Of a DNA stretch of 63,404 nt, positions 35,773-44,389 are shown piece by piece. Positions within the stretch are counted from its first letter, which is position 1, and each line of letters begins with the position of its first letter. The stretch spans positions 948,279-1,011,682 of the forward strand of contig CP070705.1 in the NCBI GenBank assembly GCA_020349965.1. The letters run 5' to 3'. Position numbers and translations under genes: made by a program. The DNA is from Caldifarciminota bacterium. GTDB lineage: Bacteria; Hydrothermota; Tepidihabitantia; SM23-42. Under the pieces are notes generated by a model. It was not told where the DNA came from, ran no database searches, and worked only from the letters and a program-made list of their open reading frames with translations.

Positions 35773-36369
35773 TCAACCGGCAATCTCCCGGCCCCGGCCA
35801 AACGCTTGTATGTTCAGGTCTACGAATTGCTCTTTTACATTCTTTCTTATCGCATCCCGCCAGTGTTTCTCCTTCAGCCGTAGAAACCTGGACAGTACAC
35901 CGAGCAGCACAATGTTGACGACACGCATATTACCCAACTCTGCAGCAATACTCGTCGCGTCGATGAAATGAGTTTTGCCCATCCTGGTCAATCGACGGTC
36001 TATGTCAGCCGGATATTCCGCCTCGCCGACCAGGACGCTCATCGGTGGTATTTCACGGTTGTCCACGATTATTTCGCCGTTCTTCTCAAGGTAGTGCGCG
36101 TAACGCAAGGCCTCGACCTTCTCGAAAGCCAGGATATAGTCGGCCGTACCCTGAGCGATGAGAGGCGAATAGACTTTCCCCCCAAAACGAATGTGGGTAA
36201 TGACGCTCCCACCGCGTTGCGCCATACCGTGTACCTCGCTCTTCTTGACGTCGAAACCCGCGAGTGACGCACAATAGCACAGGACATCCGAAGCAAGAAT
36301 GATACCCTGACCACCCACTCCGCAGATGATGACGTTCGTGTTCTCTTTTTCTCTCACGCTCTTAGCCAT
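35773..36369 (-). CDS. iorB: indolepyruvate:ferredoxin oxidoreductase, beta subunit
   Basis: A 198-residue gamma-type 2-oxoacid:ferredoxin oxidoreductase subunit. VIICGVGGQGIILASDVL (about 12-29) is the hallmark. SEVHGMAQRGGSVITHIRFG follows near residue 44. With IorA it oxidatively decarboxylates aryl pyruvates from aromatic amino acids to aryl-acetyl-CoA, reducing ferredoxin. Its ATG overlaps the iorA stop by 8 nt. Confidence 0.92.
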   Translation of the reverse strand: MAKSVREKENTNVIICGVGGQGIILASDVLCYCASLAGFDVKKSEVHGMAQRGGSVITHIRFGGKVYSPLIAQGTADYILAFEKVEALRYAHYLEKNGEIIVDNREIPPMSVLVGEAEYPADIDRRLTRMGKTHFIDATSIAAELGNMRVVNIVLLGVLSRFLRLKEKHWRDAIRKNVKEQFVDLNIQAFGRGREIAG

Positions 36370-38113
36370 CAGATTTCCTGCTCAAGAAAATTGCACTCCG
36401 CTGGCAAAGTTGAACGCACAGCCCGCAACCGACGCACAATGCTTCGTCTACAACGGCCAGCGGTTTTTCGCGGTGCTCCGGAAAAACGAGGCTTAGGGCA
36501 GGACAACCTATTCGCAGACAGAGCTTGCATCCGTTGCACGATTCTGGATCGATCCGGTATGGTGGCCTCGGTTTTACCAACAAGGCGCACGGCCTCCGGA
36601 AAACCAGAACTGCGACACCATCGTATTCCAGTGCTTGTTTAAACGCTAACTCGGTAGCAGCAAGGTCATTAGGATTTACTACCTTGACCATTTCGACGCC
36701 GCATCCCCGAGCAATATCCTCAGGTGCAATGCGACGCCCACGCTCACCTCTGGCAAGCCTACCCGTACCGGGATGAGGTTGATGTCCGGTCATTGCAGTC
36801 GTGAAGTTATCTAGAATTAGTAAACTGAGGTTCCCTTTATTATACACGGCATTGACCAAACCAGTGATACCGGAATGGAAGAATGTTGAATCACCGAGTA
36901 CGGCGACCAGTTTCTTGCTGAATTCTTTACCCAATGCTTTTTCCATACCTTGAGCATTCGTAACCGACGCGCCCATACACACGCATGTATCCATAGCACT
37001 GAGTGGAGGTAGAGCCCCGAGTGTGTAACATCCAATGTCACCCGTCACCACTAGTTTGAGTTTATTTATAACATAAAAGACGCCGCGGTGCGGGCAACCA
37101 GGACATAGTACGGGCGGCCGCGGTGGAACCTTACTGCTCTTGGCGGGGGCTTTCGTCCTTTTCGAAAAACTGCTCTTCAGCACATCTGGGGTCAGCTCGC
37201 CGCACAATGGTATCTTGTCCTTGCCCGTGACCTTTATACCCATGGCCTTGATCTCGGTCTCCAGTACCGGATCGCCTTCTTCCACTACCACAATCTTACG
37301 CACATGCTTCGCGAATCGCTTTATCATCTTCTCCGGTATTGGATGCGTAAGTGATAATTTCAGCACGCTGGCTTCGGGGAATACTTCCTTTGCGTATTGG
37401 TATGCAACGCCTGAGGTGATGATACCCAAGGTCTTCTTGCCCCATTCGATCCTGTTGTACCGAAAGACCTCACTCTGTGCGGCGATCTTCTTCAATCTCT
37501 CTTCGACCACAAGATGTAACGCCCGAGCGTGTGCCGGTAGTACAAGCCGCTTGTTTATGTCCTTTACATATCCGCTAACTTCAATTTCCTTCCTTTCTCC
37601 CAGTTCGGTCAGGCACGTAGAATGGCAAATCCTCGTCGTCAACCGCAGCAACACCGGTGTGTCGAACTTCTCCGATATCTCGAAAGCCAGCTTGGTGAAG
37701 ATCCTAGCTTCGTTGGAATCAGAAGGTTCCAGAATCGGCACTTTTGCATGGCGCCCGTAGTGACGGTTGTCCTGTTCATTCTGGGAGGACCACATGCCCG
37801 GGTCATCGGCCGAGACGACGACGAGACCGCCGGTCACACCCGAATAACCCATTGTGAAAAAGGGGTCTGCGGCAACATTGAGTCCCACATGTTTCATAGC
37901 CACGAGGGCGCGGGCACCGGCAAAACTTGCGCCGGCAGCAACCTCCAAAGCGACTTTTTCATTGACCGACCACTCGGCATTTATTTCCGGGTATTTGATG
38001 ATATTTTCAAGGATCTCGGTCGAAGGAGTCCCCGGATATGCGGTGGCAACTCTGCATCCTGCTTCCCAGGCACCACGGGCAACGGCCTCATTACCCGAAA
38101 GTAGTGATTTCAT
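36362..38113 (-). CDS. iorA: indolepyruvate:ferredoxin oxidoreductase, alpha subunit
   Basis: A 583-residue thiamine-pyrophosphate enzyme. The N-terminal pyrimidine-binding domain (SLLSGNEAVARGAWEAGC, YPGTPSTEI) is followed by a PP domain with CPGCPHRG (about 340) and GDSTFFHSGI. The C-terminus holds two [4Fe-4S] clusters (CNGCKLCLRIGC and CVGCGLCVQLC). ATG at 38113 is chosen because the predicted transcription start is at 38119. The six-base leader has no Shine-Dalgarno. It should feed acyl-CoA from aromatic amino acids into ATP formation. Confidence 0.95.
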   Translation of the reverse strand: MKSLLSGNEAVARGAWEAGCRVATAYPGTPSTEILENIIKYPEINAEWSVNEKVALEVAAGASFAGARALVAMKHVGLNVAADPFFTMGYSGVTGGLVVVSADDPGMWSSQNEQDNRHYGRHAKVPILEPSDSNEARIFTKLAFEISEKFDTPVLLRLTTRICHSTCLTELGERKEIEVSGYVKDINKRLVLPAHARALHLVVEERLKKIAAQSEVFRYNRIEWGKKTLGIITSGVAYQYAKEVFPEASVLKLSLTHPIPEKMIKRFAKHVRKIVVVEEGDPVLETEIKAMGIKVTGKDKIPLCGELTPDVLKSSFSKRTKAPAKSSKVPPRPPVLCPGCPHRGVFYVINKLKLVVTGDIGCYTLGALPPLSAMDTCVCMGASVTNAQGMEKALGKEFSKKLVAVLGDSTFFHSGITGLVNAVYNKGNLSLLILDNFTTAMTGHQPHPGTGRLARGERGRRIAPEDIARGCGVEMVKVVNPNDLAATELAFKQALEYDGVAVLVFRRPCALLVKPRPPYRIDPESCNGCKLCLRIGCPALSLVFPEHREKPLAVVDEALCVGCGLCVQLCQRSAIFLSRKSDG

Positions 38114-38125
38114 AGGTGTGTTATT

Positions 38126-38153
38126 ATTATACACACCACACGCAACATGTCAA
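38126..38153 (-). promoter_or_regulatory. promoter for iorAB
   Basis: TTGACA (38153-38148), 16-nt spacer, TATAAT (38131-38126), both consensus. Predicted start near 38119, 6 nt before the ATG. Confidence 0.87.
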
Positions 38154-38167
38154 CTTCGCGTACACCC

Positions 38168-38275
38168 GGGGACAGGCATACACTTTTAAACTTTTGCACT
38201 TTGCAGAACGAAAGTGATGATCATCGAGTGTAATACGGTGATGACAAGAAAGTTCAAAAGTGTATGCCTGTCCCC
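38168..38275. repeat. 108-bp hairpin element with 27-bp inverted arms (REP/MITE-like)
   Basis: The left arm (38168-38194) and right arm (38249-38275) are inverted complements at 26 of 27 positions; each outer end is GGGGACAGGCATACAC or its complement. The 54-bp interior holds a smaller hairpin (CACTTT 38197-38202 with AAAGTG 38211-38216) and a weaker one (TCATC 38221-38225 with GATGA 38240-38244), giving a cloverleaf-like shape. The element begins 14 bp upstream of the iorA -35 box and ends 1 bp from the buk stop codon. GGGGACAG-ended palindromes of this type accompany Y1/REP-type transposases in other bacteria; no transposase is in this window. Confidence 0.85.
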
Positions 38276-38276
38276 A

Positions 38277-39350
38277 CTATTGGTAGGTCTTTGCCTCTTC
38301 TTCTCCGCGCAGAACCCTCAGCACACCAAGTGCCAGGGCTTCCATCTCCCCTTCGCCCGGGTAAACGAAGAACTCAGGGCACAAGAATGATATCCATGTT
38401 TTCAATTGTGATACGAATCTATCCGAGTGGGCAATCCCACCGGTGATGATTAAGGCATCTATGTCGCCTTTTAGAACGACTGCATAAGCTCCCACTTCTT
38501 TCGCGATCTGATATATCATAGCATTGTACACCGCTTCTGCATCCTCATCACCCCGGGCAATCCGATCTTCTACTACTCTGATGTCATCCGTACCCAAGTA
38601 GGACAGTAACCCTCCTTCCCGATTCAATTTCTTCTTGATGTCATCATACTGATTGCCCGAAGCGAAGCACAATTTAGCCAACGGTATCGTGGGTAGAGCA
38701 CCGGTCCTCTGTGGCGAAAATGGACCGTCCTCATTGGCATTGGACGAGTCAACCTGTTTTCCTTTCAGATGAGCGGCGACCGTGATGCCGGTACCGAGGT
38801 GAATGATGATGAAACTACAATTTTCGTAAGGTTTATTCAATTTCTTTGCCGTCTTCTTCGCCACCATGCGGACGTTCAATGCATGGCTCAAAGCCTTACG
38901 CTTTATTTCCTTCAGACCCGAAAACCGCGCAAGTTCCCAAAACTCGTCGACTGAGACCGGATCGACAAAGTAAGCCTTCACATTAGATTTGCCTGCAATC
39001 TCCGCCGCGACCATCGCACCGAGCAAGGAAGGATGCTCGGACTGGTAGTTACCCGACTTGATGTCATGGATCAGCAAATCGTCAATCAGATATGTACCGC
39101 TGGTCAGAGGTTTGAAAGGCCCGCCCCGCCCCACGACCGCACTCAGTGATTCGAGAGCGACGTTCTTCGATTGCAGTAATTCTATGATCTTGTCCCTGCG
39201 AAACTCGTACTGATCGATGATCTTGGCGAATTTGAGCAACTCATCCGGATTGTGCCTCAGGTTCTCTTCAAAGACCGGATCCTCGTCATTGAATAGAGCA
39301 ACACGGGTCGAACCTGCACCCGGATTGACGACCAGGATACTGAATGCCAT
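38277..39350 (-). CDS. buk: butyrate kinase (acyl-phosphate kinase)
   Basis: A 357-residue ASKHA-fold kinase that makes ATP from an acyl phosphate. It has ILVVNPGAGSTRVALF at the start, VVGRGGPFKPLTSGTY near residue 92, and FIIIHLGTGITVAAH near 185. Its length and motifs fit butyrate/branched-chain acyl kinases and not acetate kinase. Next to iorAB it suggests ATP capture from amino-acid-derived acyl-CoA. The phosphotransacylase is not in the window. Its ~10-nt leader is little more than AGGAGG. Confidence 0.93.
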   Translation of the reverse strand: MAFSILVVNPGAGSTRVALFNDEDPVFEENLRHNPDELLKFAKIIDQYEFRRDKIIELLQSKNVALESLSAVVGRGGPFKPLTSGTYLIDDLLIHDIKSGNYQSEHPSLLGAMVAAEIAGKSNVKAYFVDPVSVDEFWELARFSGLKEIKRKALSHALNVRMVAKKTAKKLNKPYENCSFIIIHLGTGITVAAHLKGKQVDSSNANEDGPFSPQRTGALPTIPLAKLCFASGNQYDDIKKKLNREGGLLSYLGTDDIRVVEDRIARGDEDAEAVYNAMIYQIAKEVGAYAVVLKGDIDALIITGGIAHSDRFVSQLKTWISFLCPEFFVYPGEGEMEALALGVLRVLRGEEEAKTYQ

Positions 39351-42034: not shown

Positions 42035-42062
42035 TTGACAACAATTGTTCACTGGTTATATT
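42035..42062 (+). promoter_or_regulatory. promoter for beta-helix protein
   Basis: TTGACA (42035-42040), 16-nt spacer, TATATT (42057-42062). Predicted start near 42069; an 11-nt leader contains GGAG. Confidence 0.75.
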
Positions 42063-42079
42063 TATCAAACGGAGAAATC

Positions 42080-44389
42080 GTGAAGAAGATCGTATTTGCG
42101 TTTTTCGTGGCAATCAGCCAGGCATTTGCCATTACGGATGTAGGCGGGACTATTGCCACCAACACTGTTTGGGGGCCGACCGGCAATCCGCCGGATACGA
42201 TCTATAATGTCGTCTCACAAGTACTTGTGCCTGACACTGTCTCGTTGATCATACAGCCAGGCGTCCGTATTCAATCACAATATTATGGATTTTCAATTAC
42301 CGGCCGTTTGATCGCCAATGGGACAGTACAGGATTCGATACTGTTCACGTCAAGCTGTCCGACCCCGAACATAGCCGATTGGCCGGGTATCAGTTTTTTT
42401 GGCACAAACGATTCAAGCCACTTCAGTTACTGCATTTTTGAGTATGGTCGATGTGGCTTGGAGTTTTGCAGACATGTCACCATCAGAAATTCTCTACTCA
42501 GATTCTGCACTGAGGGCATATCATGGATCTATGGCGGATTATTCAGTGACAACGTGATAACGAACAATGCCACCGCCGGTATAACTGTGCACCAGATAGG
42601 CACACTTCTACCAACGATAAGAGACAATGTCATTTCTAACAATCCTTACGGCATACATGTCGATGGTGGAATCATGCCATGTTACATTATATCTAATTAC
42701 TTCATCAACAATGGCGTGGGAATAGATATCGAAGGCGGTCTGTCTGAAATCACCGAGGAGATGACATGGAATCCGGCAGTTGGCGGGGTAGATTGCCTGC
42801 TTTGGTCAGGCATCACAATCGCAGAATCCGGGAAATTGACGATCACGCCAAGCAACACATTCAAGATGCACGGATCCATGATCACGGTAAACGGACAGCT
42901 TGTTGCCCGTGGCACTGCAGACAGTATGATTACCTTTACATCATCCCATTCCTCCCCCAATCCCGGAGATTGGGGTGGCATATGTTTTTCCAGCTCGGCA
43001 ACCGATTCTTCGAGTATAGATCATTGTATCATCGAGTATGGACAAGGCATAACCACATTGTTTACGACACCGATGCGAATTTCACACTCAATTGTGCAAT
43101 ATAACCAAATTGAAGGTATTTTCTGCAACGGTAACATTACAATAGACAGCTGCCAAATATCCAATAATCTTGTAGGTATAGGCTATGGCGGTTCTCATTC
43201 ATCAGGGGCAGAAGCTTATTTTGGAGCAAATACAATAAGTGATAACGACCGAGGTATAGACATGGGCGGTCACCCGACCAAATTACCCGTATTCTATACG
43301 CCAAACCATTTTTCCAATAACACACACGACATCTACATCGACGGCGATGTTCTTGTCCAAGATGAATATGTTTGGAGTCCAGCAGCCGGGAGCGTCGATT
43401 GCGAAATCCTCGGTAGTATTATCATCGATACTACAGGTACGTTCACGATCACGCCAGGTAATACTTTCAAAACATATTTCTCGATATCGGTATTCGGACA
43501 ACTTATCGCCTGCGGTACCGATACGTCAAAGATTACATTCACATCGATGGCCCCGTATCCTACACCGAACAGCTGGGGTGGGATTTTCATCTCACCGTCC
43601 GCAGATAGCTGTATATTCTCCAACTGCATCATCGAATCCGCATACATCGGGATCGACGGTCAGGGTCCATTCCGCATGGATAGCTGCCTCGTAACGGGAT
43701 GCAATCTTGGTATTGGTGCGATCAATGCCATCATTGGTGCCTGCCAGTTTTCCAACCATACTAACTACGGCATCTACTGCTACGGAACAACGGATAGTCT
43801 GTTAATATCGAACAATATGATATCAGACAATCGCATCGGCATCAATTGTGAATATGGCGCACTGCCTGTTATAACACTCAACGAGATATTTGATAATACC
43901 GAATATGGGGTATTCAATGCCGACAACGATTATTGGATCTACGCTGAGAATAACTGGTGGGGCGATTCGACCGGTCCACGTGATACGTCGGATATCGACA
44001 CCCTCTATAATCCGAACGGCCTCGGCGACAGAGTGAGTGACCACGTGGATTATGACCCGTGGATCGGTTTTGCGGGATGCAAGGAACAACCGGTCGCAAT
44101 TCCGGTCATCAGCAGCAATGTATTCTACATTCCGCGCCCAAACCCTTTTGTGAAAACAACGACCTTCTCCTTCGATCTTGCCGATGAACAGAATGTACAA
44201 TGTGTAATCTACAACGCCCTGGGTCAGGAGGTACGCGGTCTCTGTGACGAGCGGCGAAATGTGGGACAACATCAAATCTTCTGGGACGGACGAGACAGCA
44301 AAGGCAGAGCGCTGCCCGCCGGCGTGTACTGGTGCCGTTTCGAAACCCCAGCAATTAAGGCCATCCGGAAAATCATCAAACTCGAGTAG
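42080..44389 (+). CDS. secreted right-handed beta-helix protein with C-terminal sorting-type domain
   Basis: A 769-residue exported protein. GTG at 42080 follows GGAG by 5 nt and opens a signal peptide (MKKIVFAFFVAISQAFA). The body is a series of NosD/parallel beta-helix turns built as three related ~190-residue blocks, each with 'ADWPGI/GDWGGI/NSWGGI' and 'HCIIEYG'-like steps, ending near NNWWGDSTGP. The last ~85 residues (PNPFVKTTTFSF...GRALPAGVYWCRFE) form a FlgD/T9SS-type A C-terminal domain. It is probably surface-anchored or secreted. It may bind or cleave polysaccharide, but no catalytic residues can be assigned. Confidence 0.85.
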   Translation: MKKIVFAFFVAISQAFAITDVGGTIATNTVWGPTGNPPDTIYNVVSQVLVPDTVSLIIQPGVRIQSQYYGFSITGRLIANGTVQDSILFTSSCPTPNIADWPGISFFGTNDSSHFSYCIFEYGRCGLEFCRHVTIRNSLLRFCTEGISWIYGGLFSDNVITNNATAGITVHQIGTLLPTIRDNVISNNPYGIHVDGGIMPCYIISNYFINNGVGIDIEGGLSEITEEMTWNPAVGGVDCLLWSGITIAESGKLTITPSNTFKMHGSMITVNGQLVARGTADSMITFTSSHSSPNPGDWGGICFSSSATDSSSIDHCIIEYGQGITTLFTTPMRISHSIVQYNQIEGIFCNGNITIDSCQISNNLVGIGYGGSHSSGAEAYFGANTISDNDRGIDMGGHPTKLPVFYTPNHFSNNTHDIYIDGDVLVQDEYVWSPAAGSVDCEILGSIIIDTTGTFTITPGNTFKTYFSISVFGQLIACGTDTSKITFTSMAPYPTPNSWGGIFISPSADSCIFSNCIIESAYIGIDGQGPFRMDSCLVTGCNLGIGAINAIIGACQFSNHTNYGIYCYGTTDSLLISNNMISDNRIGINCEYGALPVITLNEIFDNTEYGVFNADNDYWIYAENNWWGDSTGPRDTSDIDTLYNPNGLGDRVSDHVDYDPWIGFAGCKEQPVAIPVISSNVFYIPRPNPFVKTTTFSFDLADEQNVQCVIYNALGQEVRGLCDERRNVGQHQIFWDGRDSKGRALPAGVYWCRFETPAIKAIRKIIKLE

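Follow-up and report, generated by a model that had tools for sequence, protein, structure and literature searches.

RAYT-like genes with long GGGGWSAS TIRs have been named TIRtrons or TIRYTs by Di Nocera 2013 (PMC3733652), and that paper describes their dispersed TIRs as moderately abundant and often present as dimers. According to the TnpAY1 survey of Quentin 2018 (PMC6006769), most TIRYTs fall into subclass 2.1, which is RAYT group 1 of Bertels and the second largest subclass, found in 14.9% of strains. A C-terminal HTH was noted in these enzymes and its target was left open. The survey was unable to link the HTH with GGGG-headed repeats, and it reports that REP-like sequences were not found beside subclass 2.1 genes.

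Here we describe a palindromic element of 108 bp that lies between buk and iorA in a bacterium of candidate division WOR-3. Judged by its sequence, the element is of the TIR/TIRYT (TIRtron) type, subclass 2.1, because of the GGGGACAG head, the long inverted repeats and the C-terminal HTH of the enzyme; this assignment fits every feature tested. Very probably it is a non-autonomous TIR dimer of a TIRtron, with the single-copy Y1/HUH transposase (TIRYT) encoded elsewhere in the genome. We read it as non-autonomous since it has a dispersed family and a Y1_Tnp gene is bracketed by the same arms. We observed, besides the family and the matching transposase ends, tandem boxes in the arms, left and right arms that evolve together at fixed sites, and placement beside outward promoters.

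The element and its site

The DNA analysed (the window, 63,404 nucleotides) lies in a 2.30-Mb single-contig genome (G000). The features at the site are as follows.

36362..38134, minus strand: iorA, indolepyruvate ferredoxin oxidoreductase alpha (TIGR03336, profile match)
38126..38153, minus strand: iorA promoter TTGACA-16-TATAAT, directed away from the element (motif, 12/12 matches)
38168..38275, no strand: palindromic TIR dimer of 108 bp, very probably a non-autonomous element (fold, arm pairing, family)
38168..38179, plus strand: left head GGGGACAGGCAT, near-invariant in the family (sequence; 233 arms)
38180..38195, plus strand: left tandem boxes ACACTTTT and AAACTTTT (sequence; tandem analysis)
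38196..38247, no strand: interior, forming two small hairpins; its sequence is a degenerate version of an interior core found also in some other elements (fold; core comparison)
38248..38263, minus strand: right tandem boxes, inward on the minus strand, ACACTTTT and GAACTTTC (sequence)
38264..38275, minus strand: right head GGGGACAGGCAT, inverted (sequence)
38277..39350, minus strand: buk, butyrate kinase (TIGR02707), stop codon 1 bp from the element

The 27-bp arms (38168-38194 and 38249-38275) are complementary at 26/27 positions and are separated by 54 bases, which fold into two small hairpins at about 38196-38215 and 38220-38242. As RNA, the stretch 38160-38285 folds with −54.4 kcal/mol, and shuffled sequences average −26.5 (z −8.4); the corresponding values for DNA are −31.7 and −8.6 (z −10.5). 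Both arms have a GGGGACAG head, which matches the TIRYT motif GGGGWSAS. The arms pair with each other and not internally, and GTAG is absent from them. An Rfam search of the element gave no match, and there is no direct repeat or target-site duplication at the window copy, the flanks being GTACACCC and ACTATTGG.

The −35 box of the iorA promoter is 14 bp from the edge of the element. The start codon of iorA is likely the ATG at 38113, since a start at the beginning of the longer ORF would overlap with the −10 box. The sequence-only reading had described a 108-bp hairpin whose 27-bp arms agree in all positions but one, two small interior hairpins and a position between the buk stop codon and the iorA promoter, and in all this it was accurate. 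Its further suggestion that the hairpin might end buk transcripts is not supported: the element is no intrinsic terminator, the stem lacks a T run, and no T-tract or terminator-like site is found in 37900-38500.

The same site is occupied in six species of the genus (G000, G003, G004, G005, G006 and G007), with a flank identity of roughly 71-94%, and the window copy is therefore old. Across the six species the box types differ (ACAC, AACC, AAAC, AACA), and in G005 the left arm has decayed. At the iorA-buk junctions of other genera the element is absent, these junctions being too diverged for base-by-base alignment.

Elsewhere in the window, 42035-44389 encodes a repeat protein of 784 aa, the C-terminal tail of which (VIYNALGQEV...GVYWCRF) resembles a sorting domain. 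ORFs beside other elements, e.g. L076 4939-6435, have tails of a similar kind.

A dispersed family in the host and the genus

The first 16 bases of the arm occur within the window only in this element, and they recur across the genome. Allowing up to 3 mismatches, the arm 20-mer has 33 copies in the host genome as compared to 0 in the reversed control, and each of the 8 genomes of the genus (8/8) holds 15-42 arm copies. These counts come from pattern searches only, with at most 3 mismatches, and several of the compared genomes are fragmented or incomplete (G003 67%). About two dozen relatives of the element are scattered over the host genome, with ends that match those of the resident transposase gene.

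From the loci examined, 233 arms and 72 full palindromes of 79-207 bp were collected; the remaining copies are single arms. We rejected the notion that the interiors are all unrelated, as a degenerate core is common to 19/72 full elements at scores above the 99% shuffle level. The window element is one of these 19, with a low score of 27.

An outward TTGACA lies within 40 bp of the edge in 31/72 full elements, a count in which each genome contributes its own copy of an orthologous site, and the outward box starts number 31 in the first 20 bp and 5 in the next 20 bp. Inward TTGACA within 60 bp of the edge was found in none of the 72. By approximate gene calls most elements of the host are intergenic, often a few bases past a stop codon. 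Most simply, a compact genome would offer no harmless place other than the gap from a stop codon to the following promoter. The elements might also serve as boundaries.

Short imperfect hairpins of the form GGGGACAGGCACC...GGAGCCAGTCC (L072:2053 and L073:1377) lie near the arms at G000 2087552 and 2094276; they have a similar head and a different design.

A transposase gene with matching ends

The host genome has four Y1_Tnp genes. One of them, G000 1101206-1102060, lies outside the window and encodes a Y1 (HUH) transposase of 284 aa with Y1_Tnp and HTH_23 matches. Two direct arms stand upstream of it and one inverted arm downstream, and its stop codon sits inside the downstream arm.

L076 3037 and 3125, plus strand: arms upstream of the transposase ORF (L076 3207-4061)
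L076 4079, minus strand: arm downstream of the same ORF

The head of the downstream arm is GGGGACAG, those of the upstream arms are GGGGGCAG and AGGGGCAG. Homologues elsewhere in the genus are placed in a similar way, and the same layout, with arms locally matching on both sides, surrounds homologues in other WOR-3 genomes and in one Spirochaetes MAG. No genome of the genus was found to have more than one full-length close copy. An IS200/IS605 insertion sequence, which would be multi-copy and have subterminal hairpins in place of TIRs, was rejected on this count and on the presence of TIRs.

Residues H60-x-H62 and Y119 are invariant in alignment A1, and the Y motif reads YIHRQ. Foldseek with the AlphaFold model, which is of moderate quality (mean pLDDT 67.7, pTM 0.42), matched ISDra2, IS608 and the REP transposase 4er8. 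The C-terminal HTH helices (217-280) are mostly above pLDDT 80, and HTH_23 and Bac_DnaA_C match weakly in the transposase family. The NCBIfam REP_Tyr_transpos score of the enzyme is 36 against a cut-off of 80.

The two upstream arms, at G000:C1:1101036 and 1101124, have the same orientation, and the double arrangement is seen also in L119-L121. The inner arm directly follows a TTGTATATATTGTA stretch, a candidate transposase promoter, so that autoregulation by the enzyme is possible.

Separate TIRs, with the heads GGGGTCAG and GGGGACGG, belong to two other Y1 genes of the host, and for the latter gene two more dimers occur in the host genome. The second TIRYT gene, 657881-658774, has the TIR GGGGACGGTGCTTGACAATTTGACA, its two palindromic dimers in the host lying at G000:C1:1674159-1674283 and 1876009-1876117; about a dozen copies of this arm are present in G002.

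The window element was thus proposed correctly for the most part as a possible non-autonomous copy: it has relatives, and of the four Y1_Tnp genes one is bracketed by the same arms, outside the window. The case named as refuting it, one copy only and a genome free of transposases, does not apply. The idea of a REP-type palindrome moved by a RAYT/Y1 transposase holds as far as the Y1_Tnp enzyme with the same arms is concerned. It does not hold for the type, as there is no GTAG and the arms have no separate hairpins; hence we place the element with the TIR/TIRYT type. It is doubtful that the resident TIRYT mobilises the window element at present, because the arms of the former have AACA boxes and the latter has ACAC boxes. 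For the same reason we regard the window copy as a probable relic, left by an earlier or a different specificity. G006 and G007 have many ACAC-box elements, yet a full-length close TIRYT was not found there, which counts against the TIRtron explanation. The repeats may have outlived the enzyme in these two species, or the gene may be absent from the assemblies.

Head and tandem boxes of the arms

Each arm consists of the near-invariant GGGGACAGGCAT head followed by two tandem boxes of 7-9 bp. The box types are AAACTTTT, AACATTTT(T), ACACTTTT(T) and AAACTTCT or AACCTTTT, mostly alike in both positions. In 33 distinct TIRs, which belong to different transposase genes, a repeat period of 8 (z 8.4) or 7 (z 5.8) is seen beyond the head. 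The two boxes of a TIR are at least 6/7 identical in 67% of TIRs, as compared to 16% between different TIRs when the same freedom is given. Base pairing alone does not explain this match, because direct repeats cannot pair mutually. Recognition of both copies of the box by a protein would explain it, and the C-terminal HTH is the natural candidate for this.

Seen by eye within the genus, AACATTTT boxes go with a TVxRAL helix and AAACTTYT boxes with MA(V/I)xKxL. Co-variation of helix and box was not significant in a partial Mantel test given Y1 similarity (p 0.41 and 0.55), and we therefore do not claim it.

Plasmid TIRYT relatives of other phyla are too few for a conclusion. Three of them, from P. 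aeruginosa, R. rubrum and Iodobacter, are short and show no HTH match; their repeats have a GGGG[AT]CAG head and no clear tandem boxes. Among the longer plasmid relatives, that of Sporomusa has a weak box match (6/7, one side only), that of Acetoanaerobium, without an HTH match, a weak 6/7 match of low complexity not above shuffles, and in that of Legionella tandem boxes are doubtful. A search of published text for GGGGACAGGC together with 'transposase' returned only unrelated papers.

Paired change of arms at fixed sites

Left arms resemble their own right arms more than others of the same genome: the value is 997 as compared to 926.5 (sd 11.6) when partners are shuffled within genomes, and 0/2000 shuffles reach it. 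With concatenated flanks, we compared 21 host elements to G003, which is about 90% identical at the buk site, and most of the comparable sites are filled in both. At site 694749 the interiors are 92% identical and three of four boxes differ, AAAC in one having become AACC in the other. At host site 386743, G003 instead has the element G003:C1:1162381-1162496, the interior of which is 98% identical to that of the neighbour 1161489, 0.9 kb away; here the exchange is confined to the element. The 21842 site is without an element in G003 and resembles a deletion as much as an empty site. Neither the G003 sites nor the iorA-buk junctions of other genera gave a clean case of insertion in which an empty site aligns exactly, and this too counts against the TIRtron explanation.

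Discussion

Only one copy lies within the window, as would be the case with a chance or one-off inverted repeat. Such an origin is refuted by the folding energies of RNA and DNA and by the genome-wide family, and it deserves practically no credence. A canonical GTAG REP/REPIN mobilised by a RAYT would involve the same enzyme superfamily, and it would likewise be an inverted extragenic pair with a single-copy enzyme gene that has matching flanks. What tells against it is that the defining GTAG or GT[AG]G head is absent, that no hairpin forms within an arm, and that the enzyme has an HTH tail and remains far below the REP_Tyr_transpos cut-off; we consider it very unlikely. A MITE of a DDE transposon was rejected on the lack of a target-site duplication.

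Two further explanations concern what keeps the elements in place and their arms alike. The host might select for a functional RNA or DNA structure of whatever origin between transcription units, which would protect the 3' end of the buk transcript, attenuate transcription or insulate the iorA promoter. Presence in the six species at the buk-iorA site, arms that change in pairs, the intergenic position of most host elements and the preference for outward promoters, most of them within 20 bp, all agree with this. Nevertheless, a neutral gap in a compact genome would yield the same distribution, the family is spread over unrelated genes, the left arm could decay in G005, and neither a terminator-like site nor an Rfam match supports such a function, which makes it unlikely in our view. 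Alternatively, arm matching may be kept by mutation and not by selection, either through correction templated by the hairpin (template switching at quasi-palindromes) or through gene conversion among the copies. This is a serious possibility, although on the improbable side. The joint change of arms around a homologous interior at 694749 and the replacement of a whole element in G003 are in agreement with it. Template switching can explain the match of left and right arms, but not the match of two tandem boxes, which are direct repeats, and also not why the elements of a genome tend to be similar to the ends of its TIRYT.

Folded single strands are the substrate of Y1 HUH enzymes. If the element is a TIR dimer of a TIRtron, the palindrome would extrude when single-stranded, e.g. 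on the lagging strand, and the enzyme would act there. The HUH domain might cut at the G-rich head and the C-terminal HTH might read the tandem boxes. Copies would have moved or been exchanged long ago, and old insertions could persist in the stretch from a stop codon to the promoter that follows, where they would be neutral. We tentatively propose, as a model that seems nearly as plausible as not, that TIRYTs use a two-part code: a near-fixed G-rich head for the HUH domain and variable tandem boxes of about 8 bp for a DnaA-like HTH. Specificity would switch when the box changes in both tandem copies and in both arms genome-wide, with the elements held just upstream of promoters. The tandem box is a concrete and testable candidate target for the HTH of subclass 2.1, and it suggests how such enzymes might recognise DNA. 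Paired arm change at fixed sites across the genus is a natural record of a repeat family following, or outliving, its enzyme.

Comparison with known systems

With TIRtrons/TIRYTs as described in PMC3733652, the family shares a Y1 gene inside long GGGGWSAS TIRs and dispersed TIRs that are single or dimers. It differs in the WOR-3 host, the co-changing tandem boxes, the outward-promoter placement and the paired evolution of arms in place. The HUH-Y core, the C-terminal HTH (HTH_23/Bac_DnaA_C-like) and the low copy number are those of TnpAY1 subclass 2.1 in PMC6006769; the Y motif is YIHRQ here and Y---NP in the common form, and here the tandem box is a candidate target of the HTH.

REP/REPIN sequences and their RAYTs (Nunvar 2010, PMC2817692; Bertels and Rainey 2011, PMC3116915) are similar in having a single-copy enzyme between inverted repeats of its own, extragenic pairs and co-evolution of repeat and enzyme. 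The present family has no GTAG, no hairpin per unit, longer arms (27-30 bp) and 15-42 arms per genome. Like MITEs, the elements are short, non-coding and bounded by TIRs, with the enzyme encoded elsewhere; unlike in MITEs, the window copy has no target-site duplication, the enzyme is of the HUH and not the DDE kind, and the interiors diverge fast while the arms are retained.

Based on this comparison, three features go beyond what the available parts of PMC3733652 and PMC6006769 mention: a head followed by two co-changing tandem boxes in 33 distinct TIRs, paired evolution of left and right arms at fixed sites, and full elements that abut an outward TTGACA in 31 of 72 cases and an inward one in none.
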